Position numbers and translations under genes: made by a program. This document shows, one piece after another, positions 5,889 through 62,472 of a DNA stretch of 64,000 nucleotides. The stretch comes from Lawsonibacter asaccharolyticus (GTDB taxonomy: Bacteria > Bacillota > Clostridia > Oscillospirales > Oscillospiraceae), in NCBI GenBank assembly GCA_003112755.1, contig BFBT01000002.1:186001-250000 (forward strand), read 5' to 3'. Every line of letters begins with the position of its first letter. Positions within the stretch are counted from its first letter, which is position 1. Under the pieces are notes generated by a model, which did no database searches, was not told where the DNA came from, and saw only the letters and a list, made by a program, of their open reading frames with translations.

Positions 5889-5920
5889 ATATTATATGCA
5901 CTTTGCTGTTTTTATATTTT
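5889..5920 (-). promoter_or_regulatory. Element-type promoter, minus-strand ung-recJ operon
   Basis: Read on the minus strand: AAAATATAAA, ten bases, TGCATATAAT. This is the cleanest example of the recurrent bipartite motif described in the findings. It lies 53 bases before the lipoprotein start. Confidence 0.75.
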
Positions 5921-5929
5921 CGGAAGAGT

Positions 5930-6040
5930 AGGGAAGTCTTTATTAACGAAGAAATGTGGAGGAGGTCTGTTTTGTTTGCCGGGAGCTGTAGTTCGGGCCG
6001 GTTCCCTCGCGGGAACCTATGTCGGGGCCATGATGGCTCC
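5930..6040. repeat. Dispersed intergenic repeat, copy 1
   Basis: One end reads TATTAACGAAGAAATG; the other holds the hairpin GGTTCCCTCGCGGGAACC followed by GGGGCCATGATGG. It fills the gap between two divergent element-type promoters. Confidence 0.7.
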
Positions 6041-6042
6041 GC

Positions 6043-6072
6043 AAAATAGTTTCAGCGCAATTAGCATACCAT
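6043..6072 (+). promoter_or_regulatory. Element-type promoter for the membrane-protein block
   Basis: AAAATAGTTT, ten bases, AGCATACCAT; 53 bases before the ATG at 6126. Same geometry as the divergent minus-strand promoter. Confidence 0.65.
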
Positions 6073-6125
6073 GAACCATTGGTGGTTAGCAACATGGCCA
6101 CCTGAGAAAGGAGAGTGTTTTTGTT

Positions 6126-6722
6126 ATGAAACCTAAATCCAATACCTTTTTGCTGTTGTCTGGGGTTTTCGGAAGCATCGTTTCTGTACTCGTCCTTCTG
6201 GGGCTGGTGCTTTCCATGATTGGACTCTCTGCCGTCCCATCCATCATCGATCAATTCCAGGAGTCGTTTATTAGCCCTGCGTACGGGGCTACTGCCGGTC
6301 ATGGAACAACTGTATTTGGAAGTGACTCTGGTTATATTATCGAGCTTGGCGGCGTCGACAATCTGTTCAGTGATGAGTCCATATCGTTCGAGGATGCCTT
6401 TGGCGTTCAGGATCCGTCTGTCACCACAGACGATATAAATGAATATGTAGATGAACATGCCGACGACCTCATCAACATCTCGCTTCGATTCACAATGGTG
6501 ATCGTTATCATCGGGCTCGTCGTCACGGTACTGCTCATTGTTGGCACGATCCTGATATTCGCTGCCTGGAGGACGAACAGCCGCAAGCAGGCCATTGCCG
6601 GCTCTGTGCTGATGACCATATACACGGTGCTCAGCTTCAATTTGCTCGCGCTGGTTGCGGTCATCTTTGCCTGGATTGGGACGGCCAAGGTACTGAAGGG
6701 AGAGGTGCCCGATGAAGTCTAA
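6126..6722 (+). CDS. Multi-span membrane protein
   Basis: 198 residues with hydrophobic segments at about 8-36, 118-148 and 158-185, and an acidic, predicted extracytoplasmic region (about 40-115). AAAGGAGAG precedes the ATG. No family recognised. It heads a cluster with two similar small membrane proteins and two pilin-like genes, which suggests an envelope or transfer-apparatus role. Confidence 0.7.
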   Translation: MKPKSNTFLLLSGVFGSIVSVLVLLGLVLSMIGLSAVPSIIDQFQESFISPAYGATAGHGTTVFGSDSGYIIELGGVDNLFSDESISFEDAFGVQDPSVTTDDINEYVDEHADDLINISLRFTMVIVIIGLVVTVLLIVGTILIFAAWRTNSRKQAIAGSVLMTIYTVLSFNLLALVAVIFAWIGTAKVLKGEVPDEV

Positions 6723-6825
6723 GCCGAACTGTTTTCTGCTCACTGGCGCTATTCTGAGCCTACTGTCCGTCATCGGCCTTGCCGCCATCATTGTGCTGGT
6801 CGCCGCCTTCTGCGGGCAGATGTAG
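6712..6825 (+). CDS. 37-aa membrane peptide, short paralogue of the preceding protein
   Basis: The ATG overlaps the end of the 198-aa gene (GATGAAGTCTAA), with GGGAGAGG as ribosome binding site. Its start MKSKPNCFLLTGAILSLLS mirrors the N-terminus of the upstream protein (MKPKSNTFLLLSGVFGS), so it looks like a one-span duplicate that lost the rest or a separate small subunit. Confidence 0.5.
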   Translation: MKSKPNCFLLTGAILSLLSVIGLAAIIVLVAAFCGQM

Positions 6826-6840
6826 GAGGATGTGGCTGTC

Positions 6841-7362
6841 ATGCGAAGGTTCCTTTCCGCCATTCTCCTCATCCTGGCCCTCTGTGCCGCCCTCACCACA
6901 ACCGCCTTAGCCATGGCCGTATATCCCAACTCGGAGTTCGGTGACCCCGGATTTCATCATGAAACTGATTTCAGCGGTGATGATGATTTTGTTGTGTATT
7001 TTGACCCGGAGCGGGACGAATTCCATGTTTATGAAAACAAGATAGCCGAGGGATTCACGGCGATTCCGCTGGATGAGGCGCTTCCCTTCATCGCCAGGCT
7101 TGTTGGACGGGCGGCATTAGGTGTCATGGTCGTGGTGCTACTGTTCCGCATCGCCGGCACAATCCTCCTGTTCGTTGCCTTTGCCCGCCGCTCCAAGGCC
7201 ATTGCATGGATCGGCGTCGGGTGCATCCTTGGGACGATGGCCCTCATGCCGAGTCTTCTTGCTCTGGCGGCTGGGATATTTGGGTTGGTGGGCGCGTCCA
7301 GAATGCCGGAGCTGCAGACCGGCCTGCCAGTTCCTGATGAGGCTGCCCAAAAAGGCGAATAG
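6841..7362 (+). CDS. Membrane protein with signal peptide
   Basis: 173 residues from the ATG spaced correctly after TAGGAGGA; a GTG nine bases earlier is too close. It has a signal peptide (about 1-25), an acidic exported segment (about 30-75) and hydrophobic segments at about 85-110 and 120-150. The arrangement resembles the 198-aa neighbour. Function unknown. Confidence 0.65.
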   Translation: MRRFLSAILLILALCAALTTTALAMAVYPNSEFGDPGFHHETDFSGDDDFVVYFDPERDEFHVYENKIAEGFTAIPLDEALPFIARLVGRAALGVMVVVLLFRIAGTILLFVAFARRSKAIAWIGVGCILGTMALMPSLLALAAGIFGLVGASRMPELQTGLPVPDEAAQKGE

Positions 7363-7445
7363 CTTTTGGAGAATGTGCATAGTATGAAAATGCCATGCAG
7401 AGCTAAGCAAAAACTAGAATAACTTTCGAAGATCTTGCATAGTAT
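7356..7445 (+). promoter_or_regulatory. Two tandem element-type promoters before the pilin-like genes
   Basis: Copy 1 is CGAATAGCTT, ten bases, TGCATAGTAT (7356-7385). Copy 2 is AGAATAACTT, ten bases, TGCATAGTAT (7416-7445). They are exactly 60 bp apart and both point at the pilin-like gene at 7522. Confidence 0.7.
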
Positions 7446-7521
7446 TACACAAATTCTCCAAGAAATGCTCTGTGAGGCAAATTCAAATCACTTTGCGTTA
7501 TCGCAGAAAGGAGTAAAAGCT

Positions 7522-7977
7522 ATGAAACTCGCAATCAACCTTCGTACCCGGGCTGCCGCTCTGTTTGCCATGCTCTTTCTGTGCTTTGGCATGATTGGCG
7601 GCTTCACCGGGATGGCGAACCAGGAGGGCGCATGGTCTGAGCCTTTCGTTGTGGCTGCCCATGCTAGTGTCAATGACCTGTTTGCTGATGACAAAGATGT
7701 TATCGATGACTTGAACAATGAGAAGAACACCAACTTGGACACTGTAGAGGACAAGGTTCGTGATGTAGCACAGACTGTCACCACGATTCTGACCATTATC
7801 TCATTTGCATGCCTGCTGTTCTGGATTGCTCGGCTGGCCATGTCTGCCGGAAACCCCATGACCCGCAAGACTGCTCTTACTGGAATCATGTTCTCCGGTG
7901 TTGCTCTGGCACTGTTCGGCGGCGCCTGGATTGTCGTATCCTTCTTCTGGAATTTCCTGTCCTCCGGTACTCCCTAA
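7522..7977 (+). CDS. Pilin-like (TrbC/VirB2-type) membrane protein 1
   Basis: 151 residues from the ATG placed 8 bases after AAAGGAG. It has an N-terminal signal-like helix (about 10-30), an exported acidic segment, then two hydrophobic helices (about 88-108 and 118-142) separated by a short basic loop. This matches the VirB2/TrbC pilin layout. It is paralogous to the next gene, sharing SAGNP, ALTGI and the end GGAW.VVSFFWNFL..GTP. Likely a conjugation pilus or channel subunit. Confidence 0.6.
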   Translation: MKLAINLRTRAAALFAMLFLCFGMIGGFTGMANQEGAWSEPFVVAAHASVNDLFADDKDVIDDLNNEKNTNLDTVEDKVRDVAQTVTTILTIISFACLLFWIARLAMSAGNPMTRKTALTGIMFSGVALALFGGAWIVVSFFWNFLSSGTP

Positions 7978-7998
7978 ACAAATCCATAACTCAAACCC

Positions 7999-8032
7999 AA
8001 CGGGGCGGCGGTTTTCCGCCGCCCCATTTCTA
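7999..8032 (+). terminator. Hairpin between the two pilin-like genes
   Basis: GGGGCGGCGG / CCGCCGCCCC hairpin followed by ATTTCT. It may be an attenuator that sets different levels of the two paralogues. Confidence 0.6.
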
Positions 8033-8058
8033 ATCCCTAACAAGGAGGAGGATTACCA

Positions 8059-8487
8059 ATGCGGAAACTCTGCACTAAATTCTATATTTGGCTTATGTCT
8101 CTGCCGGCACTGCTTGCTTCGGTCTTCGGCGCTGTAGTCCCTGCTTATGCAGCTATCGACATTCAGGTTGATGGCAGCGGAGTTAAGATCCAGCCTGGAG
8201 ATATGCCGGACATGACTCAAGTTACCGGGGTGAAGGACGCTGTCGACGATCTCGTGATGCCACAGGTACGAGCTGTCGCGCAGGTCATTACGACCATTTG
8301 CACCGTCATTTGCCTTGCCGCATTTTTGATCAGCGTCACTAAGCTGGCGACTTCGGCGGGCAATCCTCAGGCCCGGCAGCGGGCCCTCACCGGCATCCTA
8401 ATTTCCGGTATCGCGCTGGCGCTGTTCGGCGGTGCGTGGGTCGTCGTGTCGTTCTTCTGGAACTTCCTAAACCAAGGCACCCCCTAA
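8059..8487 (+). CDS. Pilin-like (TrbC/VirB2-type) membrane protein 2
   Basis: 142 residues with CAAGGAGGAG upstream. Cleavable signal peptide ending PAYA, then two hydrophobic helices (about 78-97 and 108-132) around a basic loop. Aligns with the upstream paralogue over the last 75 residues with the same WNFL..GTP ending. Tandem pilin duplicates suggest either a two-component pilus or antigenic/functional diversification. Confidence 0.6.
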   Translation: MRKLCTKFYIWLMSLPALLASVFGAVVPAYAAIDIQVDGSGVKIQPGDMPDMTQVTGVKDAVDDLVMPQVRAVAQVITTICTVICLAAFLISVTKLATSAGNPQARQRALTGILISGIALALFGGAWVVVSFFWNFLNQGTP

Positions 8488-8537
8488 TTGCACGCTCCAA
8501 AAGAGCGGCGAATATTCCGTCGTCTTTTCTCATGTCA

Positions 8538-8567
8538 AAAATATGATTGCCGCAATCTGCATATAAC
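8538..8567 (+). promoter_or_regulatory. Element-type promoter
   Basis: AAAATATGAT, ten bases, TGCATATAAC; 54 bases before the ATG at 8622. Confidence 0.65.
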
Positions 8568-8621
8568 TATATTTGAAAAACAATTCAGATTGTCTCATAC
8601 TCCAAGGAGGCGAAAACCATT

Positions 8622-9296
8622 ATGGGAGCCTATCAAAATGCATCGCAGCTATTGCCAAAGCCGGTGTTGGCCATGGCCCGGGAGGTTAATTACAGCAAGG
8701 AAAACTACCTGATCTTGGCCCGCCGGAATAAACAGCTTCAGAAGGAGTTTCCCCAGATTTGGGAGAATATCCAGGGCTGTGCCTACTGCGCCGATGGACG
8801 CGCGCCTATCGAGTATGCCCGAGACCTGGTGGCTTCCTGGCTGGTTGAGGACTACTTCCTTCATCTGCTCACGGAGGCTGGCTATGAGGCCGCGGCTGCC
8901 GGAGCCGATAAGAAACGGACGATCCTCCAGTACTGCCAGACGGGTGCCGAATGTGATTTTCAGATCCGGCTGGGCGGACAGGTATTTCATGTGGAATTCC
9001 TGTGTGACTATACCGGCTACTGGTGTCGCACTGGCCATGTAGACCTGCGAGACGGCAAGTATAAGAAATTGCGTACCCAGCAGTCGCTGGCACTGGGCGT
9101 GGACGCCCAGCAACGGAAGGCCATTCTGCTGGATTTCCGCCAGGAGGTTCCTGGCGTACGGCGGGTGGAGGCTCACAAACCATATGGCGGAAAGCCCGCC
9201 TATGTGGTGCCGTGTCAGGAGGATGATTTCTTCCCACTGTCGCCGGACGATCTGGCAAAACATCTCCAGGCCGCGCTGTTGGCAAAGACGGCATAG
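8622..9296 (+). CDS. Hypothetical protein, possible PD-(D/E)XK nuclease fold
   Basis: 224 residues with ribosome binding site AAGGAGG. The segment ECDFQIRLGGQVFHVEF (about 116-132) has the spacing of an acidic-x-acidic nuclease core, and a lysine-rich stretch follows (RDGKYKKL). The catalytic lysine is not placed canonically, so the nuclease idea is weak. It sits between pilin and replication-relaxation genes, in its own unit with a terminator. Confidence 0.45.
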   Translation: MGAYQNASQLLPKPVLAMAREVNYSKENYLILARRNKQLQKEFPQIWENIQGCAYCADGRAPIEYARDLVASWLVEDYFLHLLTEAGYEAAAAGADKKRTILQYCQTGAECDFQIRLGGQVFHVEFLCDYTGYWCRTGHVDLRDGKYKKLRTQQSLALGVDAQQRKAILLDFRQEVPGVRRVEAHKPYGGKPAYVVPCQEDDFFPLSPDDLAKHLQAALLAKTA

Positions 9297-9302
9297 CTGC
9301 CA

Positions 9303-9333
9303 AGAAAGGCTCCATTCGGGGCCTTTCTTCTTG
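9303..9333 (+). terminator. Rho-independent terminator
   Basis: AGAAAGGCTCC / GGGGCCTTTCT hairpin followed by TCTT, just after the gene ending at 9296. Confidence 0.65.
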
Positions 9334-9341
9334 CGAGCAGG

Positions 9342-9486
9342 CAGTCTCACGGACCCGGCATAGGTCCCTGAAAGGGACCGGCCCCGGCGGGAGACATCGG
9401 CAAAGGCAAAACAGCCCGCCAGATTTTCTTCGTTAGAAAAGACCCCACCTAGACCGTAGCCAGGAAGCTCCCGAACTTTAGTTCGG
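9342..9486. repeat. Dispersed intergenic repeat (copy 2) plus AAGTTCGG hairpin
   Basis: Reads CTCACGGACC, hairpin GGTCCCTGAAAGGGACC, then TTTTCTTCGTTAGAAAAGA (ending 9446). It is followed by CCGAACTTTAGTTCGG (9473-9488), a hairpin that recurs with the same flanking sequence near 44.0 kb and partly near 41.9 kb. With the promoter below, this accounts for the 380-base gap. Confidence 0.65.
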
Positions 9487-9619
9487 TGAGAGAATCAGAT
9501 AGGTTTCCTCTGGAAACCAACTAGCAACGCCCCCTGCGAAAGACTCCCCCCTGACAAACCATGTCCGGCCAAAGACAACCTAGCACCACAACCCCAACAA
9601 ACACCGGCCATTAGCTTCG

Positions 9620-9649
9620 CCAATAGAGTGGGGGAGATTTGCATAAAAT
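9620..9649 (+). promoter_or_regulatory. Element-type promoter (weaker box A)
   Basis: CCAATAGAGT, ten bases, TGCATAAAAT; 30 bases before the TTG start at 9680. Confidence 0.55.
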
Positions 9650-10945: not shown

Positions 10946-10950
10946 GTCCA

Positions 10951-28227: not shown

Positions 28228-28402
28228 TAGTATGGAATAATTCTCCGCCTAACAAACATAATAAGGGGAATTTTCGCCTTTTCATCTTCCGGGCGCATTT
28301 TCGCAGCAAGTGCCTGAACCCGGAAGTCAACTCTACACAACAACTCAGGCATTCCCTAAGCGGGCAGTGGAAAGGCTGCACCTTATGAAGGAGGGCTCTG
28401 TT

Positions 28403-29152
28403 ATGGCCAAGGCGAGATTTATGGACAAGGAAGACCCCCTACTGGGGCGAGGAGAAGACATGCTGGATATGCTGGAAGAAGACATGGATCCGGAGGAGAT
28501 CCAGATGTTGATGCAGGCAGACGAGTACGGCAATTCGCACATTCCGCAGACGGACGAGGAAGTTGCGGAATTCATTGAGCGCAACAGCCGGCTCATCCAC
28601 GCTATCCTGCGACCCTACCGTGGGTTGGATGACTATGACGACCTGTTCCAGGAGGCAGCCATTGGATTCCTAAAGGGGATCCGTACCTACAATCCGAAGA
28701 CGCAGAATAAGATCACTACCTACGCTTTCGCATGTGGCCGAAATGAGGTCAAGATGTACCTGCGCAAGGGCCGTGCAAAAAGCCGGAGCGGCGGGGTCAC
28801 TGTTTCAATCGAGGCTAGTATCAACCCCGAGGACGAGCGGGACAATCTGCTCAACAAAGATCTACAAAGCTATGACCCGCTGTATGAGCCGGAGGACCTG
28901 GACGAGAGTATCCACCGCAACATCCTGTACGAGCGGGCCGAACGGATCATGAAGAGGCATCTCAACAACACACAGCAGTTTGTGGTGCGGCAGATGATGA
29001 ATAAGGTGCCGCAATCCAAGACGGCCAAGGTGCTCAAGACCTCCCAATCGGAGGTATCCAAAATTCTGAAGACCAGCATCTGTATCATCCGTCTCAAAAT
29101 GCAGGAAGAAGAGGAATCGGGATGGCTTTCTGACGATGAGGTCTGCGTCTGA
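28403..29152 (+). CDS. Sigma-70 family factor, SigE/SigK-like
   Basis: 249 residues from the ATG after GAAGGAGGGCTCTGTT. Residues about 20-50 are acidic. Region 2 is clear: RGLDDYDDLFQEAAIGFLKG (core RNA polymerase binding), then ITTYAFACGRNEVKMYLRK, close to the TYA.RC.ENEILM.LR segment of sporulation SigE/SigK. Region 4 ends with a helix-turn-helix (SKTAKVLKTSQSEVSKILK). Region 3 is short. It probably directs RNA polymerase to the GCATANNAT promoters of this element; this is an inference from region 2 similarity and promoter type. Confidence 0.8.
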   Translation: MAKARFMDKEDPLLGRGEDMLDMLEEDMDPEEIQMLMQADEYGNSHIPQTDEEVAEFIERNSRLIHAILRPYRGLDDYDDLFQEAAIGFLKGIRTYNPKTQNKITTYAFACGRNEVKMYLRKGRAKSRSGGVTVSIEASINPEDERDNLLNKDLQSYDPLYEPEDLDESIHRNILYERAERIMKRHLNNTQQFVVRQMMNKVPQSKTAKVLKTSQSEVSKILKTSICIIRLKMQEEEESGWLSDDEVCV

Positions 29153-33235: not shown

Positions 33236-33267
33236 TTATTATATGCAGTTCTCCTTTTTTATATTTT
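33236..33267 (-). promoter_or_regulatory. Element-type promoter
   Basis: AAAATATAAA, ten bases, TGCATATAAT on the minus strand, 28 bases before the ATG at 33208. Confidence 0.75.
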
Positions 33268-44215: not shown

Positions 44216-44269
44216 TCAGCAGTACCCAATCTTTGGAGAAATACAAGAAATACAAGGAGGCAAAACAAA

Positions 44270-46708: not shown

Positions 46709-47554
46709 TTACATCCCCTCCAGTTCCTCCAGGGCCAGCCCAACAAGCGGTTCCACAGAGATCTCATAATCCTCAACCTTCGTGGGGACCTCGACACTGG
46801 GCCGCAGAGTAGCCGTCACAGACCGGTGGACCTTGGCGGAAGAATACTGCCCATTCTTGCAATCATGCTCGAACCAGAACAGCTTGATAACTTCCATGGA
46901 GCCTTCCGGTCGGGAGGAAGATGCGTCGTTGACAAAGAGCGTGCGCAGGCACTCCTTGATCACCTGGGCATCCTCCTCGGAGAAGCCGGTCTTCTCCGCC
47001 AGCTGGACATTGATGGATCCCATGACCTTATACAGGCCGAACCGGACAAGGTGTTTCATTCCCATGCGATCCGATGCAATAGCCTCATCCTTGCCCTTGT
47101 CCTCAGCATTGACACTCTTAGTGATCTGCACGGAGTTGATATCTACAGGGGAAAGGCTGACTGCCTGATGGATAGATACTGGGCCTCGAACCCCAATCGA
47201 CGCACTCTCCCCCTTGAAGGCAAAAACCTGTCCGAAAGCACGCACATCCATCCATTTTTCACTGGCAATTCTGGCGTACTCATCGCGGTCTTTGATCCCG
47301 CTCATCACAGCGGCCGCCCGTTTGCTCAAGCTGTCAAAGCCGTCGTCGCTGCGGTCTTCAGACTGAACAAAAATCGGGAATCCCTGATCCTGCATCCGGT
47401 TGCGGATCTTTCGCTTGATACACACATCCGAAATCTCACCATGTCCGTTGTAATCGGTGCGGGGCCGGTTCCCGTTGAGAGGGTCGCCGTTGGGGTTTGC
47501 GTTGGTCACGCTGATCAGGGCCACAAAGTCGATCTTATGCTGCAGAATGCTCAT
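46709..47554 (-). CDS. cas7: Type I-C Cascade backbone protein Cas7 (Csd2)
   Basis: 281 residues. N-terminal VALISVTNANPNGDPLNGNRPRTD is the Csd2 signature. This subunit coats the crRNA along the spacer. It overlaps the end of cas8c by 20 bases, with the ribosome binding site GAGGAAATG inside cas8c. Final effector gene before the array. Confidence 0.95.
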   Translation of the reverse strand: MSILQHKIDFVALISVTNANPNGDPLNGNRPRTDYNGHGEISDVCIKRKIRNRMQDQGFPIFVQSEDRSDDGFDSLSKRAAAVMSGIKDRDEYARIASEKWMDVRAFGQVFAFKGESASIGVRGPVSIHQAVSLSPVDINSVQITKSVNAEDKGKDEAIASDRMGMKHLVRFGLYKVMGSINVQLAEKTGFSEEDAQVIKECLRTLFVNDASSSRPEGSMEVIKLFWFEHDCKNGQYSSAKVHRSVTATLRPSVEVPTKVEDYEISVEPLVGLALEELEGM

Positions 47555-47963
47555 TTTTCATTTCCTCCTCATTTTTATTGGCCTTTTCCTTTTTGGTATA
47601 TAGATCCTTGCGCTGAAGGCTGTATCCAACCAGATACATCCCACCAAGCTGGGCGTTCCACTGACTTTCCGGAACACCATTCTCCTCATTCCACTGCTGA
47701 ATCTTGGACATGACATCCTCAATCTTACGGCGATAAAACTGACGCAGGCCGGGGGTCAGTTTGGGAAGATAAGCCACATTCAACTTCTCAAAAATCTGAG
47801 CGGAAACTGTCAGCGGCCGGCGGCAGAATGCGGACATATACCGGATTGCATTGGGTTCACGAGTTTCCTTTTCCTTGTATGTATCTCGCTCTGCCTTTTC
47901 CAGAAGAGCCAGAAGGCAGCCATACAAGGCGTCTCGATCCATTTTCTCATAGTTCAAATCCAT
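47535..47963 (-). CDS. cas11c: Internal Cas11c (small subunit) within cas8c
   Basis: An in-frame ATG at 47963 follows a strong internal ribosome binding site (ACAAGGAGAAGTGCCTG). It yields 142 residues, helical, equal to the cas8c C-terminus. Type I-C systems are known to make the small subunit by such internal translation. Confidence 0.65.
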   Translation of the reverse strand: MDLNYEKMDRDALYGCLLALLEKAERDTYKEKETREPNAIRYMSAFCRRPLTVSAQIFEKLNVAYLPKLTPGLRQFYRRKIEDVMSKIQQWNEENGVPESQWNAQLGGMYLVGYSLQRKDLYTKKEKANKNEEEMKNEHSAA

Positions 47964-49421
47964 CAGGCACTTCTCCTTGTAAATATCATGGCGGTACTTT
48001 TGAATAACAGCACATGCTGTTGCGAGAATATCTTCCCACAACCGATTCTGGGTTTTAGGATCGCTGAAACACTGGGGCGAAGATGCCTTCTGAACCAGCG
48101 CCCGGACAATATCCAAAGGCATATGTCCCTGATCAACCCTGCAAGCCACAAGGCGCTGCATTTGCTGCCCCAGCACTCTGTCTTCCACATCCATCCGAAT
48201 GGTACCTTTCTCACGCCGCGGATTCCCATATGCATAGGTCACGATTTGCTCCAGCTTGGGAGAGCGGATGCCAGCGTTGGAAAGGTATTTGTCCCAGCCA
48301 AAGTACCAGCAGCAGTATTGATCCCAATCGTGAAGCCGCTGAAGGAAGTCGCTCCCCATCAGCTCATTGTAGTAAGTAACAGACAGTCTCCCTGTGTTGG
48401 CAGAAGTGAGATCAAGAGCCGCAACAACGACCTGCCCGTCCCGCTCCGGGAGGAGGCTGCGCCAACCTTCCAGAGTGCGCTGCAGCTCCCATCGATAATC
48501 ACTTGGTCGGAGAACAACCTCTCCATAAATACCAGTAAGCGGATCTGTTACTCGCAGGACTCCAATTCCACCAGGGTTCCAGCAGAGAAAGATTCGGGTA
48601 CCATAGGCGGCCCGAACGCCCTGCTCAGCAATCAACCAACGCAGTGCATTGTGGGCTTTTTGAGAAGCCACATAACTGACCGTAACAGCCTGGTCGGGTT
48701 CAGTAAACCGGCCTCGATAGGTAAATCCAGCATCATCGTTGGACGAGATCAGCTTGGCATTTCCGTTTCCAGGATGAAGGGATTTGGGCTGCTGGCCTGG
48801 AGGAACTGGGATGTCATAGGCACCGGTAATCATACACAGCGCAGGAAGGCGACCAGATTGTTTTTCTGCATACCACTCCTGGAAGGCTTGAACCAAAGAG
48901 GATTGCTGCCAACATCCATCATCAGGCGTTCCAAATCCTTTCACCCTCCAGCAAACCATCAACTTCTCGTTTTTTGGAATGCCGCTCCCATCCAATTCAA
49001 TGAGCCCACTGTCCAATAGATCAGCGAGGATCGTTTCGCTCCTTACATATGTCAAAATTGGTTGCAACATCGGATGACTGTGGGCAGAGGCAGTCCACTC
49101 TGCGAGCTGTGTGACATAGTTCTCATGTCGGGCTTTATCGTAAGCAGCAAGGTAACTAAGCTGATCGCACAGCGGATGTGCTGGCGGGTGTTTCCCAGAT
49201 CGAGCCGTCGATTGCTCTGTAACTGGGATGGGAATTTTAGATTCGTTCTTACCCACCTTTCTGGCAGAAATAAACTTTCCTGCAGCATCCAGGGTGACCT
49301 CTAAATCAGCTCGTGCCACGATATGAGAAATCGGCGCCAACATCAAATGGCCTTCAACAACTTTGCCAACCAGTGACGCATGAGCGTCATAGGTTTCAAT
49401 CGCCTTTTCAAACAACCCCAC
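47535..49421 (-). CDS. cas8c: Type I-C large subunit Cas8c (Csd1)
   Basis: 628 residues, normal length. Csd1 features: N-terminal PISHIVARADLEVTLDAAGKF, HPLCDQLSYLAAYD, and later ALRWLIAEQGVRAAYGTRIFLCW. Recognises the PAM and anchors the complex. Starts one base after the cas5 stop. No cas3 follows or precedes it in the window. Confidence 0.95.
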   Translation of the reverse strand: MGLFEKAIETYDAHASLVGKVVEGHLMLAPISHIVARADLEVTLDAAGKFISARKVGKNESKIPIPVTEQSTARSGKHPPAHPLCDQLSYLAAYDKARHENYVTQLAEWTASAHSHPMLQPILTYVRSETILADLLDSGLIELDGSGIPKNEKLMVCWRVKGFGTPDDGCWQQSSLVQAFQEWYAEKQSGRLPALCMITGAYDIPVPPGQQPKSLHPGNGNAKLISSNDDAGFTYRGRFTEPDQAVTVSYVASQKAHNALRWLIAEQGVRAAYGTRIFLCWNPGGIGVLRVTDPLTGIYGEVVLRPSDYRWELQRTLEGWRSLLPERDGQVVVAALDLTSANTGRLSVTYYNELMGSDFLQRLHDWDQYCCWYFGWDKYLSNAGIRSPKLEQIVTYAYGNPRREKGTIRMDVEDRVLGQQMQRLVACRVDQGHMPLDIVRALVQKASSPQCFSDPKTQNRLWEDILATACAVIQKYRHDIYKEKCLMDLNYEKMDRDALYGCLLALLEKAERDTYKEKETREPNAIRYMSAFCRRPLTVSAQIFEKLNVAYLPKLTPGLRQFYRRKIEDVMSKIQQWNEENGVPESQWNAQLGGMYLVGYSLQRKDLYTKKEKANKNEEEMKNEHSAA

Positions 49422-50150
49422 CTAAATCACCTCCTGGTGTTTCTCCGGCACACTGAAGGTTTTCATTGTCATTTTGCGCACCGGTTTATGGAACGGGCAA
49501 TCTTCCGGGCGCGGGAAAGTGATAATACCGTTCCGCATGACTGGGTACCAAAAATTTGAGGTCAGCATACCTTGGCTTCCCTTAGAGTAGGCCTCATCTG
49601 GGTATGTCATACCATGAAGCATCAGCCCAAAGCTCAACTCCGGGATGTTGTCATACGCACCGACCCCATCCCCGAAAACACAGGGCTCCACATATCCCTG
49701 GCACTCACGGGTTCCCAGAAAAATATCCCGCCGGCCGCCTTTTTCGATCATGCGCTGGAAAAACTCTCTATATTTCCTTGCATTTCGATCGTTGGCCATC
49801 TCAGGACGGTTATAATTCCACTCAAAATGGCCTCGCACCTGGTAGCGGACGCGTTTAAGGTAGGTGTAGTAGGAAAGATCACTGATTACACCTTTCTTTT
49901 TGGGCTGATAGACCAACGGCCGCATACCCTTAGCTTCTGTCTGGATCGGTTCCATAATGCGAACGGCATCCGGATATAGGATCAGTGTTGGCTTCCATAG
50001 AATAGATGCCATAATACCTTTGATAGCCTCATATGTAGGCACCTGATAAGAGCATTTTTCTCCACCCATTCGGGTAACGGGGTCGCTGAACATCGCGTAA
50101 TCGCCAGTCACCTGAAATTCTATCTGATTAGGATGTTTTAATTCCTGCAT
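49422..50150 (-). CDS. cas5c: Type I-C Cas5 (Cas5d), crRNA-processing subunit
   Basis: 242 residues. IEFQVTGDYAMFSDPVTRMGGEKCSYQVPTYEA (residues about 10-42, quoted in part: GDYAMFSDP, YQVPTYEA) is the Cas5d start, and FLGTRECQGYVEP is the conserved middle. In type I-C, Cas5d replaces Cas6 as pre-crRNA nuclease. First gene of the operon; AAGGAGGG precedes the ATG. Confidence 0.93.
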   Translation of the reverse strand: MQELKHPNQIEFQVTGDYAMFSDPVTRMGGEKCSYQVPTYEAIKGIMASILWKPTLILYPDAVRIMEPIQTEAKGMRPLVYQPKKKGVISDLSYYTYLKRVRYQVRGHFEWNYNRPEMANDRNARKYREFFQRMIEKGGRRDIFLGTRECQGYVEPCVFGDGVGAYDNIPELSFGLMLHGMTYPDEAYSKGSQGMLTSNFWYPVMRNGIITFPRPEDCPFHKPVRKMTMKTFSVPEKHQEVI

Positions 50151-56649: not shown

Positions 56650-57282
56650 TTAGCCTTCCTTCACCTGGAGGGCGGAAAGGATATCCTCGAAGGATGCGTT
56701 CACATCCCAGGGAGCCTTGTAGTCGACCTTGGTGTTGACTACGGCCTCGTCGATCTGGGCGGAGACTTTATCGGCCTCAGACAGCAGATCCTGCATGGTG
56801 GCTTTCAGCTTGGCGCGGTCAAACCGCTCGGTTGTGGTGACCTCCACATCATAGATGTAGGGGACCTGGTTACCCTCGCCGTTGAAGGTATAACCGGTGC
56901 CCCGCTCCACCTTCTTGCCGCTCTTAATGCGGAGCATGCTGCGGATCTTCTCGGCCACCGACTGGCGGCACTTATTAGCCTCGATGGCCGCGTCCATGTC
57001 ACCGATGCCGCCGGCCAGGTTGCCCTTGGCCACGCCGATGGCCTTGGTCAGGGCGTCCTTCTCCTTCACAATGGAAAGGGCCAGGGAGATGGCGGTGTCA
57101 GGAACGACCAACTCGGTGACCTCAGCCACCTCAGTCTCGTCCTCAGCGCTGGAAATAGCCTTGCTCCGGCGGTGGACCTTGCTGACCTCCAGCAGGTTGT
57201 CTTGAATGGACATGGTTGCCATAGTCTGGTTCAGCAGCCGGTCCAGGAAATTCTGATAACGGAAAGCCTCTTTGAGATTCAT
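56650..57282 (-). CDS. Hypothetical protein, 210 aa
   Basis: Start MNLKEAFRYQNFLD after CGAAGGAGGATTGTTTC. Long helical N-terminal half, then NGEGNQVPYIYDVEVTTTERFDRAK and a helical end. Similar proteins are frequent in Clostridia mobile elements without known role. Preceded by four tandem promoters, implying strong or layered expression. Confidence 0.65.
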   Translation of the reverse strand: MNLKEAFRYQNFLDRLLNQTMATMSIQDNLLEVSKVHRRSKAISSAEDETEVAEVTELVVPDTAISLALSIVKEKDALTKAIGVAKGNLAGGIGDMDAAIEANKCRQSVAEKIRSMLRIKSGKKVERGTGYTFNGEGNQVPYIYDVEVTTTERFDRAKLKATMQDLLSEADKVSAQIDEAVVNTKVDYKAPWDVNASFEDILSALQVKEG

Positions 57283-57323: not shown

Positions 57324-57562
57324 CTATTATATGCACTTCTTCCGAAATTTATTCCCGCTGTATTTGGCAGCCAGGATCCCGGAGAAAAGCCGTTCACATA
57401 TATTATATGCACTTCCCAAAAATTTTATATTAGGGACCGTGGCGGGAAGGGCTGTCTTTCTGATTGTATTATATGCACTAGCTCGTTTTTGTATTTCGGC
57501 CAGACCGCCGGCTTTAGAAATCGTTTTGTTTTATTATATGCTATACGCCAAATTTATATTTT
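57324..57562 (-). promoter_or_regulatory. Four tandem element-type promoters
   Basis: Box B copies at 57324 (TGCATATAATAG), 57400 (TGCATATAATAT), 57466 (TGCATATAAT) and 57531 (AGCATATAAT), spaced 76, 66 and 65 bases. Box A copies are GGAATAAATT, AATATAAAAT, GAAATACAAA and AAAATATAAA, each exactly ten bases before box B. Confidence 0.75.
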
Positions 57563-58016: not shown

Positions 58017-58919
58017 ATGGCGACAAAAATTGGAGCGCCCAAGAATGAGTTCCCCATCAAATCGGCCGAGAGCATGCTGCCGGTCATTGCCGGCAACACA
58101 GTCTTCGTTGTAGCAGATACTGAGACAACTGGCTTTGGCGCCTATGACGACATCCTGGAGATTGGTGCAGTCAAAATAGATGTGGAGACACACAAGGTCA
58201 TCCAGTCCTTCAGTACTTACTGCCGTATGAAAAACCATCAGAAGGTTCCACAGAAGATTGTTGACCTCACAGGCATCCATACCGAGGATGTGGCTGAGGC
58301 CCCCAAGATCGAGACGGTCCTACCGGCATTCCGCCAATTTGTAGATGGCTGCCCAATCGTCTTTCATAATGCGGCCTTCGACTGGCGCATGCTGGGCAAC
58401 AAGTACAAGCTGCTGGGTACCAGGCTGAACAACGATGTCATCTGCACGATGAAGCTGTTCAAGTACCTGCATCCGGAGGCTGAAGCCAGTAACCTGGACT
58501 TTATCACCAAGTTCTACGGAACTCCCATCGTCGGCCACCACCGGGCCGTTGTCGACTGCAAGTGGACGGCCGCGGCCTTCTGCAAGATGCGGGATGAAGT
58601 CCTGGCGACCGGTGTCATGCCGGTCATGAACCTGGACATGCTGGCTGGCCAGCAGTCTATGCCGGCAATGACCATGGCAGAACTGAATGCCCAGTGCCGA
58701 ATCCTGCGGGTCAACAGCTGGAAGAAAGGCAAGGTCCAGCGTATTTATTGCACGACCAACCTGGCCGATGTCTGTTATGACCTGGGCGAACATGTCTGGA
58801 ATGTAGTCCGCAAGCGGACAGACCGGGATCTGGATATCAATGTTGTATCAAAATTCATCCTGGGCTATCTGGGCTGCAGTCTAATCGAATTCCAGGAGAA
58901 ATACGCACCGTCCGCCTGA
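58017..58919 (+). CDS. DnaQ-like 3'-5' exonuclease
   Basis: 300 residues from the ATG after AGGGAGGAGGCAAGAAC. DEDDh exonuclease motifs: VADTETTGFG (Exo I), VFHNAAFDWRML (Exo II), HHRAVVDCKWTA (Exo III with His and Asp). The C-terminal 110 residues have no assigned domain. It could proofread or trim DNA during element replication; no polymerase gene is in the window. Confidence 0.85.
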   Translation: MATKIGAPKNEFPIKSAESMLPVIAGNTVFVVADTETTGFGAYDDILEIGAVKIDVETHKVIQSFSTYCRMKNHQKVPQKIVDLTGIHTEDVAEAPKIETVLPAFRQFVDGCPIVFHNAAFDWRMLGNKYKLLGTRLNNDVICTMKLFKYLHPEAEASNLDFITKFYGTPIVGHHRAVVDCKWTAAAFCKMRDEVLATGVMPVMNLDMLAGQQSMPAMTMAELNAQCRILRVNSWKKGKVQRIYCTTNLADVCYDLGEHVWNVVRKRTDRDLDINVVSKFILGYLGCSLIEFQEKYAPSA

Positions 58920-58923
58920 CACA

Positions 58924-58966
58924 AAAAACAGCTTCCCAAGATTTGTTTCTTGGAAAGCTGTTTTTC
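58924..58966. terminator. Bidirectional terminator between convergent genes
   Basis: AAAAAACAGCTTCC...GGAAAGCTGTTTTT hairpin with A and T runs on the two sides. Confidence 0.85.
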
Positions 58967-58971
58967 TATGT

Positions 58972-59616
58972 TCAATTAGTATTTTTCAACACAAACTGCC
59001 ATCCATCGGCGTCCACATCGCCTTCCAGGGTATAGCCAATTTTCTGCTCATCCAACAATGACAGGAATTTCTGTGCTGTCTCCTGTGACACTACAATGCC
59101 GTCAGCGGCATCTTCCTCGAATGGGACTTCATCCCATCCCTCCGGCATCTGCTCAAACCGGACTACTGTCACGGAAGCAGAGTCCATGGCCATCTTCGGG
59201 ATTATCCGCTTGGCATCTTCCATGCCGTCACTGTACATGACAGCCTGTGGCGACGCGTCGCTGCCGGCCGGACCATTCATGTTGACCTGTGTGGCTGCTC
59301 CATACAGGCAGATGCAGAAAGCGGCACAGGCGGCCATGCCAGCTGCCGCCCTTGTCCATGGCTTCTGGAATAGATGGGTGACCTTGGATTTATGTGCTGC
59401 CCGCACCTGGACCATCGTCTTCTTAGCCAGATCCTTCGGCGCCGGGATCGTATCCATTACCCGAATCGAAGCACACATGCGCTCCAGCTCGACCTTCAGG
59501 GTTCGGCACCGGCGACAGGAATTCAGATGGAGCTGCATCTCCCTCTCTTCTTCCGGAGACAATTCTCCGTCTATATCTGCGGAGATCATTCGTTCATACT
59601 TTCGACAGAAAGACAT
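58972..59616 (-). CDS. Membrane anti-sigma factor with zinc-finger domain
   Basis: 214 residues. N-terminal zf-HC2 motif (MISADIDGELSPEEE, then HLNSCRRC) binds the ECF sigma; one membrane helix at about 88-106 (AAAGMAACAAFCICLYG); the rest is extracytoplasmic. It follows the sigma gene by six bases. It would release the sigma in response to an envelope signal. Confidence 0.85.
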   Translation of the reverse strand: MSFCRKYERMISADIDGELSPEEEREMQLHLNSCRRCRTLKVELERMCASIRVMDTIPAPKDLAKKTMVQVRAAHKSKVTHLFQKPWTRAAAGMAACAAFCICLYGAATQVNMNGPAGSDASPQAVMYSDGMEDAKRIIPKMAMDSASVTVVRFEQMPEGWDEVPFEEDAADGIVVSQETAQKFLSLLDEQKIGYTLEGDVDADGWQFVLKNTN

Positions 59617-59622
59617 TCCAGA

Positions 59623-60255
59623 TCACTCCTTTCCTTTCCCATAATTGGACAGAATTTGGTCCGAAAAGTTGCTGTCCGCCAGCAATATCTTCCGGAGCGC
59701 CAGCCGGGCTCGGGACAGGCGCGACTTCACAGTGCCCAGATCAATGTCCAAGGCTGCCGCCAATTCTTGATAGTCCAGTCCGGCAATTTCCCGCAGCGTG
59801 ATAATCTGCCGGTAGTGCTCCGGCAGAGCAGATAAGCCCCGCTCGATGGCTCGGCTGATCTCTGTTTTCTCCAGCTTATGGTGTGGATCCAGGCTCCAGT
59901 CGCCCGGTTCTGGGATGGTCGACTCCTCATCATCCAGGGACGGCCCTCTCAGCCCCTGCCGGGTGCGGCAGTAGCGAAGATGGTCGATGCACAGGTTTGT
60001 AGCCATTCGGTACAGCCAAGTGGACAGGCTGCTGTTACCCCGAAAATTGGGCAACGACCGCCATGCCTTCAGGAATACCTCCTGAGCCAGATCGGCTGCG
60101 TCATCCCGATTGTTTACTAGCCGAAGGCAGAGCGAATATACTTTATTTTGGTTTGCTAAAACGATCTGTTCAAAAGCATCCTGGTCTCCCTGAGCGGCCT
60201 TTACCGCTAGGTTGCGGTCTGATGTTGATGTGTAGGTCGATACAAGAACAGCCAT
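59623..60255 (-). CDS. ECF sigma factor, SigW-like
   Basis: 210 residues. Region 2 NRDDAADLAQEVFLKAWRSLPNFRGNSSLSTWLYRMATNLCIDHLR and region 4 LPEHYRQIITLREIAGLDYQELAAAL with helix-turn-helix ending TVKSRLSRARLALRK (given in parts; all typical of ECF sigmas). Paired with its anti-sigma. It is transcribed from an element-type promoter, not an obvious ECF promoter, so it may sit below the other sigma. Confidence 0.9.
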   Translation of the reverse strand: MAVLVSTYTSTSDRNLAVKAAQGDQDAFEQIVLANQNKVYSLCLRLVNNRDDAADLAQEVFLKAWRSLPNFRGNSSLSTWLYRMATNLCIDHLRYCRTRQGLRGPSLDDEESTIPEPGDWSLDPHHKLEKTEISRAIERGLSALPEHYRQIITLREIAGLDYQELAAALDIDLGTVKSRLSRARLALRKILLADSNFSDQILSNYGKGKE

Positions 60256-60290
60256 CTTGATATATCACCCCTGATTTTTTGTTTGTTTTA

Positions 60291-60322
60291 ATATTATATG
60301 CAGTTTTAACGGAACATATTTT
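60291..60322 (-). promoter_or_regulatory. Element-type promoter of the ECF sigma operon
   Basis: AAAATATGTT, ten bases, TGCATATAAT on the minus strand. Confidence 0.75.
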
Positions 60323-60358
60323 GTGGCTAATATTCTCCACAATCCAGCCACATCCCAA

Positions 60359-60397
60359 AGAAGAACCGGACAGCATTGCTGCTGCCCGGTCTTTGGT
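60359..60397 (-). terminator. Rho-independent terminator
   Basis: AAGACCGGGCAGC...GCTGTCCGGTTCTT hairpin followed by CTTTGGG on the minus strand, after the 205-aa gene. Confidence 0.7.
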
Positions 60398-60403
60398 TTG
60401 AGC

Positions 60404-61021
60404 TCATACCTCAACCACAGTAATAGGCACCCTATTCATGCGCTCGGCAGCTCGCAGGAAAGCCTCCCGCTTGTCGGCGTTGGTACTCATGGCCTGATCC
60501 AGCTCCATGATAGTCATAATGCTGTAGTTAGCCAAGTCGATAAGCGTGTCCCGGATCGATTCATCCGAAACCCGCTGCTTCTCGCCGCTAGTGAGAGTTT
60601 TGAAACGCAGATACTTGTCGCCAAGCCGGATGCGGGGCATTGCCAGCCCTTCCTCAAGAAAGGACAGATGGAAGCTGTCCCCATAATCCAGATTCTTTCG
60701 ATGATACAGCTCCTGCAACTCCCTGCAGAGTTCCCAATGATTATCCTCTTCGGTGGGCTTGCCATCCAACTCAATGATGACCATCATCGCCTGGTTGGCC
60801 AATGCGACCAACGCACTGCGGGCCGCTTCGAAGTCCCGAATTCTGCTCATCTTCTTGAACATATCCAGATTCAGGCCCAGCAGGCTCCTGGACATCTTTA
60901 TGGCGTCATTCCTATCCCGGAAGCCGTGGAAAGTCTCATGAAACTCCTTCCCAGCCCCCTGTTTGTAGGCACGGTTGATCTCTTCGCATATCGCCGCATG
61001 GCGGATTTCATTTTCCAGCAT
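60404..61021 (-). CDS. Nucleotide-modification-associated domain 1 (DUF1599-like) protein
   Basis: 205 residues. C-terminal half carries LYHRKNLDYGDSFH, RLGDKYLRFKTL and SIRDTLIDLANYSIMTIMELD, the Nmad1/DUF1599 pattern. The N-terminal half has a faded copy (NLDMFKKMSRIRDFEAARSALVALANQAMMVIIELD, in parts), so it may be a degenerate internal duplication. Such proteins accompany phage nucleotide metabolism. Third gene of the macro-RNase H operon. Confidence 0.7.
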   Translation of the reverse strand: MLENEIRHAAICEEINRAYKQGAGKEFHETFHGFRDRNDAIKMSRSLLGLNLDMFKKMSRIRDFEAARSALVALANQAMMVIIELDGKPTEEDNHWELCRELQELYHRKNLDYGDSFHLSFLEEGLAMPRIRLGDKYLRFKTLTSGEKQRVSDESIRDTLIDLANYSIMTIMELDQAMSTNADKREAFLRAAERMNRVPITVVEV

Positions 61022-61265
61022 GTTGCATCTCCCCCATCTTTAATTCTGTCAGAATCTCATCTATCAGTTCCGCAGCCTCCTGGCGTTCCGCCTCGGTAAA
61101 CTCAGGTTCCTGATGTCGCGGCATCCAGATTTTCTGGATATACCAGCTATGGATGCGGGCTTTGAGGCCCCTCCCCCGCCAGTAAAGGCGGGAGAGGAGC
61201 GTTTGAAAGCCCTCTCGCCACATGGCTTTCGAGGAAAGCCACAGGTATGCAGACAGCTTCTTCAT
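61008..61265 (-). CDS. Hypothetical protein with hairpin repeats inside
   Basis: About 85 residues if started at MKKLSAYLW; only GGGGTGG precedes. Its 5' half is built by hairpin sequences (CATGGCTTTCGAGGAAAGCC at about 61220, and CTCCCCCGCC/GGCGGGAGAG at about 61172). The C-terminal 38 residues (MPRHQEPEFTEAERQEAAEL...) look like normal protein. The true start is uncertain. Overlaps the next gene by 14 bases. Confidence 0.4.
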   Translation of the reverse strand: MKKLSAYLWLSSKAMWREGFQTLLSRLYWRGRGLKARIHSWYIQKIWMPRHQEPEFTEAERQEAAELIDEILTELKMGEMQHAGK

Positions 61266-61279
61266 GGCAGCCACCCCGA

Positions 61280-62389
61280 TTAGATGAACTTCGCGGACTC
61301 AGCCCGGGCCATCTCATCACAGATGTTGTTGTAGGCAGTGTCCGCATGGCCCTTGACCCAGATACAGTTGATCTTGTGCTGCTGAAGCAGCTGGTCGACC
61401 TCCTGCCACAGCTCCAGGTTGGCGATGCCGCCTCTCTTCTTCCAGTTCTTCTGCTTCCAGCCTTCCAGCCATCCTTTCGCAATCGTGTTGATGACATAGC
61501 TGGAGTCAGAGTACAAGGTGATCCGGCAGGGCGTCTTCAGCAAAGACAGGGCCTCCTTTACAGCCGTCAGCTCCATCTCCTGGTTGGTGGATTCCTCCTT
61601 ACCGCCAGAGACGCGCTTCTCGGCCGGACCTTTCTTGGTCTGAGCAAGCAGGACCGCAGCCCAGCCCCCCGGGCCTGGGTTGAACCGGCAGGAACCATCC
61701 GTGTAGATGGTGACTTCAGACAGCTTGGCCTCCAAGTCGTCCACTAAGTAATCAGGCGCGAATTCCTCCTTGTGTTTCCGCGGCGCCCGGGGCTTCTTTG
61801 CCGGTTTCGGCTCAACTGCAGGGACCGGTTCGCCAGTCTCGGTACCCGGCTCATCAGCCTTTGGCTCAGGCTCAGCAGCCGGCACATCCACCTTCGGCTT
61901 CTCAGCCGGAGCGGGAATGGTCTCATTTGGTGTATATTCTACGATGGTACAGCCAGCCGACTTGAAGTCGAAGTACTGGGCGATCAGTTTGCTGACATCA
62001 TCCCAGTTGCCACCAGCCAGACCACAGCCCATCAGCTTCGGGAAGGCCGGCTTGGCATCAATCCGAAAGCAGAAATTGGCTACCTGGGACAGGCAATCGT
62101 CCAAGGCCCCCATGACCGTTTGCACAGCATCAGTGCCATATCCATCCTGCGCAAACAGGTTGGCAATGACGGTCCCATCATGGCAAATCACAAACTGGGT
62201 ATGGCCCAACAGAGAACTGCCAAACTGATCACACAGGGCCTTGTATTGCTCATAGGCCTCCGGGTACTTCTCCTTCACCTGTTTGGCCAGACCTGCGCCC
62301 ATCACGCCTCTGCAGTTGACCTGATGACAGCGGACCTTGGCGTCGTAGGCTAACAAATCGCCTCTTACTTCCTTAATAAATTCCGACAT
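61280..62389 (-). CDS. Macro domain fused to ribonuclease HI
   Basis: 369 residues. Residues about 1-150 are a macro domain (CHQVNCRGVMGAGLAKQVKEKYP in parts; GCGLAGGNWDD), which binds ADP-ribose or related nucleotides. A Pro/Glu/Lys-rich linker (about 150-205) leads to RNase HI (about 225-369) with all four acidic residues: YTDGSC, EMELTAV, YSDSSYV and CDEMARA. It cuts RNA in RNA-DNA hybrids; the fusion suggests coupling with ADP-ribose or nucleotide metabolites. First gene of a three-gene operon. Confidence 0.9.
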   Translation of the reverse strand: MSEFIKEVRGDLLAYDAKVRCHQVNCRGVMGAGLAKQVKEKYPEAYEQYKALCDQFGSSLLGHTQFVICHDGTVIANLFAQDGYGTDAVQTVMGALDDCLSQVANFCFRIDAKPAFPKLMGCGLAGGNWDDVSKLIAQYFDFKSAGCTIVEYTPNETIPAPAEKPKVDVPAAEPEPKADEPGTETGEPVPAVEPKPAKKPRAPRKHKEEFAPDYLVDDLEAKLSEVTIYTDGSCRFNPGPGGWAAVLLAQTKKGPAEKRVSGGKEESTNQEMELTAVKEALSLLKTPCRITLYSDSSYVINTIAKGWLEGWKQKNWKKRGGIANLELWQEVDQLLQQHKINCIWVKGHADTAYNNICDEMARAESAKFI

Positions 62390-62442
62390 GTGTCGTTTTC
62401 CTCCTTTTAGTTAATTTCCACCTTAAATTGGGTACTAATTCA

Positions 62443-62472
62443 ATGATATGCAAATATCGGCAATCCCATTTC
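62443..62472 (-). promoter_or_regulatory. Element-type promoter of the macro-RNase H operon
   Basis: GAAATGGGAT, ten bases, TGCATATCAT; leader TTAGTACCCAATTTAAGG. Confidence 0.65.

Follow-up and report, generated by a model that had tools for sequence, protein, structure and literature searches.

The window analysed here is a 64,000-nucleotide stretch of the Lawsonibacter asaccharolyticus genome (4.28 Mb, 7 contigs) corresponding to bases 186001–250000 of contig C2 (BFBT01000002.1), and the subject of this analysis is a bipartite, promoter-like motif that recurs throughout it. The end of C2 (431,489 bp) repeats its own start over 27.7 kb at 99.8% identity, with gaps and no mismatch, and for this reason C2 is taken to be circular, its unit measuring 402,310 bp. 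The 46 gaps and 0 mismatches between the two copies of the terminal repeat suggest that the assembly of C2 holds indel errors, so some genes may be frameshifted. Approximately 400 genes were called on C2 with our own simple gene caller, which is not an annotation, and a scan of 35 of the encoded proteins against Pfam identified gyrase A and B, the DNA polymerase III alpha subunit, RecD2-like and RecG-like helicases together with topB, an FtsH-like protease, SpaA-domain surface proteins, a VirB4/TraG-type ATPase, a DnaG-type primase, a Replic_Relax protein and Cas5/Csd1. No phage structural family turned up among these 35 of the ~400 proteins, and the VirB4/TraG-type ATPase points to a conjugative plasmid rather than a phage. 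As a circular replicon of more than 100 kb that encodes such an ATPase, C2 is taken for a conjugative megaplasmid; the available part of a strain-collection paper describes gut isolates with megaplasmids of 103 and 126 kb (PMC12056005). The closest relative that turned up, a 387-kb contig (G099 contig C2; L001) of an assembly labelled Oscillospiraceae bacterium, forms 112 reciprocal best protein pairs with C2 and is hereafter called the relative.

A matrix scan of the window located 36 motif sites of at least 12 bits, in line with the count of about 37 given in a preliminary description made from the sequence alone, and they lie on both strands, as that description held. They are listed below with two sigma genes of the window and the box in front of one of them; site coordinates are window positions, scores are in bits from the matrix, and the two site classes are described further on.

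2310–2339, minus strand: motif site, 24.2 bits
5891–5920, minus strand: motif site, class 1, 37.4 bits
6043–6072, plus strand: motif site, 23.9 bits
7356–7385, plus strand: motif site, 27.0 bits
7416–7445, plus strand: motif site, 27.3 bits
8538–8567, plus strand: motif site, class 1, 32.2 bits
9620–9649, plus strand: motif site before the Replic_Relax protein, 28.1 bits
13290–13319, plus strand: motif site, 16.3 bits
14038–14067, plus strand: motif site, 28.0 bits
14464–14493, plus strand: motif site, 30.8 bits
15197–15226, plus strand: motif site, 19.8 bits
19814–19843, minus strand: motif site, class 1, before the RecD2-like helicase, 33.1 bits
19927–19956, plus strand: motif site before topB, 28.4 bits
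22964–22993, plus strand: motif site, class 2, 28.4 bits
25810–25839, plus strand: motif site before a VWA protein, 29.8 bits
28198–28227, plus strand: sigma-A-like box TAGACA-N18-TATAAT before sig255, 11/12 matches
28385–29152, plus strand: sig255 (A202), sigma-70-family factor and proposed reader of the motif, Sigma70_r2 at 6.2e-13
33238–33267, minus strand: motif site, class 1, 36.9 bits
34683–34712, minus strand: motif site, 30.7 bits
35946–35975, plus strand: motif site before the DnaG-type primase, 24.4 bits
40416–40445, minus strand: motif site, weak, 15.6 bits
41642–41671, minus strand: motif site inside a called gene, 24.5 bits
41693–41722, minus strand: motif site within a called gene, close to its start, 23.6 bits
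43640–43669, minus strand: motif site before tnpB, 25.1 bits
43909–43938, minus strand: motif site, 26.4 bits
44186–44215, plus strand: motif site, 23.5 bits
50348–50377, minus strand: motif site, class 1, before cas5/csd1, 37.3 bits
50940–50969, minus strand: motif site, class 1, 35.1 bits
51237–51266, minus strand: motif site, 32.1 bits
53282–53311, minus strand: motif site, 23.7 bits
56128–56157, minus strand: motif site with a class 1 sequence, half of it within a short called gene, 31.2 bits
57326–57355, minus strand: motif site, one of four in tandem, 36.4 bits
57402–57431, minus strand: motif site, tandem, 32.4 bits
57468–57497, minus strand: motif site, tandem, 29.5 bits
57533–57562, minus strand: motif site, tandem, 31.5 bits
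57925–57954, plus strand: motif site before an exonuclease gene, 31.4 bits
59623–60255, minus strand: ECF sigma factor of 210 aa, preceded by a strong motif site and lacking an orthologue on the relative
60293–60322, minus strand: motif site, class 1, upstream of the ECF sigma gene, 37.1 bits
62443–62472, minus strand: motif site before an RNase H protein, 33.2 bits

The geometry of the motif is precise. With box A and box B of the preliminary description held exactly ten bases apart, as claimed there, 33 window sites score at least 14/16, whereas the same boxes at other gaps (4–9 and 11–17) give 1–10 sites each and 100 dinucleotide shuffles of the window average 0.31 sites and never exceed 2. 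The consensus first described is corrected to a strict core, AAT-N17-CATANNA with a G, mostly as T-G, before CATA; the remainder of box A differs between two subclasses. When all gapped 4-mer pairs were counted in the upstream regions of C2, GAAT-N16-GCAT came first (58/271 regions, 1.54 expected), and the same pair is also at the top on the relative (55/317 regions, 2.14 expected), such that the proposed search of the complete replicon and of a related one returned one motif from both; upstream regions of the host chromosome yielded weak pairs such as TTGA-N19-TATA, which has the sigma-A form. Expectation maximisation started from GAAT-N16-GCAT placed the motif in 143/271 regions of C2 and 138/317 of the relative, and cross-trained matrices at a threshold of at least 12 bits matched 130/264 and 128/307 upstream regions, respectively, with 20 shuffles of the cross-tested regions averaging 0.1 and 0.2 matches. 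The whole of C2 holds 205 sites with the C2-trained matrix and 181 with the matrix trained on the relative, and the motif, promoter-like and not of sigma-A type as first described, thus covers the entire 402-kb replicon beyond the window. The spacers between the boxes have little sequence in common. Reverse strands of the upstream regions match as well (21 on C2, 43 on the relative), and these matches are put down to divergent neighbouring genes.

The sites are oriented with respect to genes. Box B ends 0–300 bp before a same-strand start at 174 of the 205 C2 sites and at 163 of the 193 sites on the relative, with counts of 40 and 58 if the sites are turned round; the sites do lie upstream of starts, and the range of 25–200 bases initially given for them is corrected accordingly, the commonest distance on C2 being 40–60 bp. 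Only 15/205 sites are mostly inside called genes, although 78% of C2 is coding. Genes were counted as leading when the adjacent gene is on the opposite strand or at least 60 bp away, and as internal when the gap is less than 60 bp. A non-coding site stands in front of 151/256 leading genes and 1/143 internal genes of C2, and the statement that the motif precedes almost every transcription unit is better rendered as most. Because internal genes have little non-coding room, the count was repeated with sites inside genes included, which gave 156/256 leading versus 3/143 internal genes on C2 and 147/298 versus 4/143 on the relative. Site positions are conserved between the two diverged replicons: for the 112 orthologous pairs, a site is present in both in 35 cases, on C2 only in 17, on the relative only in 18 and in neither in 42 (odds ratio 4.8, p 1.3e-4). 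At 6–7 bases past box B the base A is weakly preferred, which fits a transcription start that we infer at ~7 bases past that box. Moreover, sigma-A-like boxes (at least 9/12 matches) are rarer before genes with the motif than before those without it, at 11/127 versus 24/144 regions on C2 and 11/115 versus 49/202 on the relative, and they occur before 60/194 chromosome genes without the motif. The downstream genes are unrelated in function, as noted before for topB, CRISPR (here Cas5), tnpB and the DnaG-type primase and now also for the Replic_Relax, RNase H and exonuclease genes, and those identified across the plasmid serve replication, transfer and defence. The nearest motif site upstream of the tRNA-Thr genes is ~490 bp away. 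Four tandem sites occupy 240 bp (window 57326–57562) in front of a gene at 56650–57282 that has no Pfam match, and the type I-C-like cas genes (Csd1 and Cas5; window 47535–50150) likewise have a motif site in front.

The motif is confined to the replicon. Of the 67 genome matches to the exact pattern RAATA-N15-GCATANNAT, 65 fall on C2 (61 if its repeated end is left out) and 2 on the 3.5-Mb chromosome C1, and with the C2 matrix 0/195 chromosomal upstream regions matched, which bears out the expected absence from the host chromosome nearly in full. The looser RAAT-N16-GCATANNAT has 140 genome matches, with the chromosome holding 3 of the 100 listed. On 700 kb of the host chromosome the C2 matrix found 7 matches and the matrix of the relative 2; three of the seven weak C2-matrix matches fall within one 20-kb stretch (L201; C1:2400001–2420000). 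The 58-kb contig C3 gave 2 and 0 matches, respectively. In the genome of the relative, 25/26 exact-pattern matches are on its 387-kb contig.

Two classes of site can be told apart. Class 1 (AAAATATAAA..TGCATATAAT) makes up 38/190 non-coding sites on C2 and 5/177 on the relative, and the remainder are class 2; TATAAT is present in 59/205 C2 sites. Since a class 1 site on C2 can face a class 2 site before the orthologous gene of the relative, class 1 looks like a variant of the C2 lineage, and the two classes do not differ in the conservation of the genes they precede (10/35 versus 47/132, p 0.55). The class 1 pattern AAATA-N15-GCATATAAT occurs 41 times in this genome, whereas a search of 98 further genomes, 60 from the same genus and 38 from the order, gave 1–2 matches in 7 and none in 91. 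Downstream of the sites, 71/128 class 2 leaders tested on C2 carry a leader box, ACCCCAATTTNGGAAA with the strong part CAATTTNGG (for example at window 44216–44240), which begins 8–11 bases past box B (log-likelihood 393 versus 56 when shuffled); on the relative the box is weaker and ends in GGAA (165.7 versus 56.3). In many C2 leaders a further Shine-Dalgarno sequence follows this box close to the start codon. A 5'-proximal Shine-Dalgarno sequence can act as an mRNA stabiliser, and by analogy the leader box may stabilise mRNA near its 5' end, or it may be an operator. The pair scan of the relative also brought up a second recurrent word set, CCGATACTG / CAGTATCGG, before genes. Elsewhere on C2, a 7.6-kb inverted repeat (C2:135500–143080 / C2:260443–268007, 96% identical) overlaps two large surface-protein genes, and the one that was scanned has SpaA domains.

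A fundamental question is which RNA polymerase holoenzyme could read such sites. SigE/SigK-type promoters follow a sigma spacing rule, and the motif matrix combines a MAT-type −35 and a CATANNNT −10 at that spacing. The likeness to sigma-E and sigma-K promoters pointed out in the preliminary description holds against the tabulated consensus in the available part of PMC3416734, in which the −35 resembles TAATATAT or GAATACTT and the −10 is GCATANNNT(A); the sigma-E promoters TAATATAT / GCATATTATT (spoIIID) and GAATACTT / GCATAATATG (yqfCD) look like the motif, with spacers not tabulated there. A related sigma gene is present on the element itself. Among 39 genome matches to sigma-70 region 2, four proteins are encoded on C2, namely sig255, the ECF factor, an RpoD-like protein of 392 aa and sig203, and a fifth, A329, matches more weakly. 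The RpoD-like factor (C2:331405–332583) is 38.5% identical to host SigA and, like the ECF factor, has no orthologue on the relative. Genes sig203 and A329 are small sigma-like neighbours (C2:345076–346508) with a motif site before each. A clear orthologue on the relative exists for sig255 alone: B276, which is syntenic in the topB/AAA/VWA block and 42% identical over 174 residues; A329 pairs with B234 at 28.7%.

Sequence comparisons place sig255 in the sigma-70 family, with region 2 at 48.8 bits (Pfam cut-off 24) and a best NCBIfam match, to the broad sigma70-ECF model TIGR02937, at 71.3 bits (cut-off 42.9). The SigE models give 64.7 and 64.0 bits (cut-offs 339 and 348.6), with an E-value of 8e-18 at a score below cut-off, and the SigK models 63.9 and 55.0 bits (cut-offs 252 and 298.65); because these scores are far below the cut-offs, sig255 would be a relative of SigE and not SigE itself. 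The host chromosome encodes both SigE (371.1 bits, cut-off 348.6) and SigK (255.4 bits, cut-off 252) above the curated cut-offs. SigE/SigK residues are retained in regions 2.4 and 4.2: the region 4.2 residues SQS of sig255 align with SQSYIS of host SigE, and the region 2.4 pattern TYA..C..NE..M.LR is shared with host SigE. In a phylogenetic tree the sig255 family, B276, A329/B234 and sig203 form one clade (support 96/99), which stands beside SigE, SigK and Bacilli plasmid sigma factors with support of 88/74 and several long branches, and the RpoD-like and ECF factors group with host SigA and host ECF (99/98 and 100/100). A structure search with the sig255 model returned mixed sigma chains at the first ranks, and the modelled region 2 matched the SigE N-terminal domain 8b3z at 38–41% identity and TM 0.80–0.83 by target (ranks 29, 40 and 47). 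The start codon of sig255 comes from our own caller, and the 249-aa relatives in databases begin at a later ATG (28403). Both sig255 and B276 have a sigma-A-like box in front, TAGACA-N18-TATAAT with 11/12 matches and TAGACA-N17-TAAAAT with 10/12, respectively.

Searching a protein database for relatives of sig255 gave 23 proteins at E <= 0.001, which range from near-identical copies and fragments to sequences of 43% identity. No genome but the own one, among 394 of the order, matched the VirB4/TraG-like protein (at E <= 1e-100) or the sig255 profile (at E <= 1e-30). At family level (400 genomes, E <= 1e-25) the profile matched 11 genomes, one of them the own; nine of the other ten, covered by loci L177–L185, align with host SigK, and L179, L184 and host SigK itself exceed the SigK subfamily cut-off. 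Viral contigs held no relative of the RpoD-like factor or of topB and only seven weak sigma-like stretches for sig255, and phage and plasmid records held only relatives below 60% identity.

We hypothesize that the sites are promoters with a −35-like [AG]AAT, 17 bases, a −10-like (TG)CATANNAT and a start ~7 bases on, and that the core RNA polymerase of the host would read them with a sigma factor that the plasmid encodes and that belongs to the SigE/SigK lineage. The likeliest such factor is sig255 (B276 on the relative), perhaps assisted by the element paralogues A329/B234 and sig203. Host sigma-A would transcribe sig255 from TAGACA-N18-TATAAT and so start the system; sig255 would then turn on most of the plasmid, including replication, transfer, defence and further sigma genes, and the host chromosome, with almost no such sites, would be left alone. 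We assign a probability of roughly three in four to this proposal of a replicon-wide regulon under a SigE-related sigma factor that the plasmid encodes and host sigma-A switches on. The plasmid probably runs its own transcription programme, which was one half of the initial suggestion and is the best explanation of the sites. The other half, a link to sporulation, is unsupported because the chromosome that carries SigE and SigK has almost no sites and the plasmid genes concern replication, transfer and defence.

Several points weigh against this proposal. The best NCBIfam match of sig255 is the broad sigma70-ECF model, and it scores far below the cut-offs of the SigE and SigK models; its region 4 has no Pfam match at E <= 0.1 (B276 reaches 23.2 bits, cut-off 24.1), and its predicted structure is of low confidence overall (pLDDT 69, pTM 0.39). 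A329/B234 are conserved too, and other sigma factors of the element could be readers. The frequency of sigma-A-like boxes in motif-free C2 regions given above means that those before sig255 and B276 could partly be chance, and sig255 has no motif site of at least 12 bits within 2.5 kb, B276 having a weak one of 14.5 bits. The contrast between leading and internal genes is partly built in, as internal genes are defined by gaps below 60 bp, and 105/256 leading genes have no non-coding site. Finally, only two elements of this kind were read nearly in full, and the motif is not shared by the Bacilli megaplasmids that carry a related sigma gene.

An alternative hypothesis is that another factor of the element reads the sites, be it A329/B234, sig203, the RpoD-like protein or the ECF factor, alone or separately for the two classes. 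The conserved A329/B234 pair belongs to the same clade as sig255, and class 1, which has TATAAT or TATAAC, tracks the RpoD-like and ECF genes found on C2 only; however, neither of these two has an orthologue on a relative that does have the motif, the classes share AAT and GCATA and swap between orthologous genes, and class does not follow gene conservation, all of which makes this reading unlikely. Could the host sporulation factors SigE or SigK read the sites instead, such that expression of the plasmid takes place chiefly in the mother cell? The motif fits their consensus in the available part of PMC3416734 and the chromosome carries both factors, but that chromosome, the expected home of sporulation regulons, has just two of the exact matches, replication, transfer and CRISPR genes would be odd cargo for a mother cell, and the element has its own factor related to this lineage; we regard mother-cell expression as quite improbable. 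Moreover, C2 sites, unlike sigma-E and sigma-K regulons, sit on one replicon before many functional classes of gene.

The two remaining explanations are both very remote. A mark for segregation, packaging, nucleoid structure or transposition would account for a motif that is replicon-wide and replicon-specific, yet the sites are strand-specific, lie mostly 20–80 bp before leading genes and nearly never before internal ones, and show sigma-like geometry around spacers with little common sequence. Ordinary sigma-A promoters in AT-rich gaps would explain the TATAAT seen in part of the sites, but TTGACA is missing, the near-invariant GCA before TANNAT is not a sigma-A feature, chromosomal upstream regions show TTGA-N19-TATA instead, and shuffles of the same gaps give 0–2 matches.

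The closest known counterpart to the proposed sig255 system is SigN (ZpdN) of the Bacillus subtilis plasmid pBS32, a plasmid sigma factor whose regulon is predominantly plasmid-restricted according to the available part of PMC6751061. Both systems have a plasmid-encoded sigma factor and one consensus found mostly on the plasmid, with gyrase and DNA polymerase III genes in the SigN regulon as described there. C2 shows two features of a SigN-like system, a sigma gene on the plasmid and a motif restricted to it, which sig255 would read. SigN is first expressed from SigA-dependent promoters, and the boxes before sig255 and B276 are sequence matches of such a kind. The systems differ in scale, as the SigN table lists 17 mapped and 2 predicted promoters and 402 kb of C2 holds about 200 sites, and in consensus, which for SigN is TTTACGTTT..AGATATAA (Table 2, PMC6751061). 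SigN, known here by its description, is weakly ECF-like, LexA-repressed and autoregulated, whereas sig255 is SigE/SigK-related and has no 12-bit site nearby. A plasmid sigma factor with a plasmid-restricted regulon is known already, with about a tenth as many promoters. Open-access titles and abstracts on plasmid sigma factors and on giant elements with their own sigma factor contained no replicon-wide system of this size, and the available part of a megaplasmid review (PMC8628078) does not use the term 'sigma factor'.

Bacilli megaplasmids (pSC2 and others, L132–L136; 127–603 kb) encode a related topB and a sigma-70 gene, which adjoins DUF87/PrgI genes in four of the five (L132–L135). The loose motif has 0, 3, 2, 3 and 9 matches on them against 2, 7, 1, 3 and 2 for the reversed pattern, so that the Jeotgalibacillus megaplasmid (9 versus 2) alone is clearly above its control. 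A pair scan of the stretches read of four Bacilli megaplasmids found no pair like that of C2; the Brevibacillus megaplasmid has a weak pair, TTAT-N17-CATA (11 versus 2.53 expected). In the Paenibacillus plasmids W02 and W04 the strongest pair is GACT-N5-CAAT (15 versus 0.91 and 12 versus 0.51 expected), which resembles an inverted repeat more than a promoter. Phage middle and late promoters are read by phage sigma factors such as T4 gp55 and SPO1 gp28, and the proposed system resembles these in that an element-specific sigma factor would switch the polymerase to the promoters of the element.

Transcription of large plasmids is usually attributed to the housekeeping sigma factor of the host, apart from a few specialised regulons. 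If our proposal is true, ~200 promoter-like sites of a single non-host type, also present on the diverged relative, would make this plasmid a transcriptionally separate unit, which would explain how it could hold its genes silent, or turn them on, as a block in new hosts, and would offer a set of orthogonal promoters for this group of bacteria. We lean, with more reserve, towards a broader model in which a family of ~400-kb Bacillota plasmids would be transcribed for the most part with SigE-derived sigma factors of its own (sig255 and paralogues), separately from the host chromosome. Host sigma-A would set this off once, and many of the promoters would be followed by a shared, positioned leader box. 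Such plasmids would add a second programme to the cell that evolved from the sporulation sigma lineage, a SigE/SigK-related lineage put to plasmid life and not to spores.

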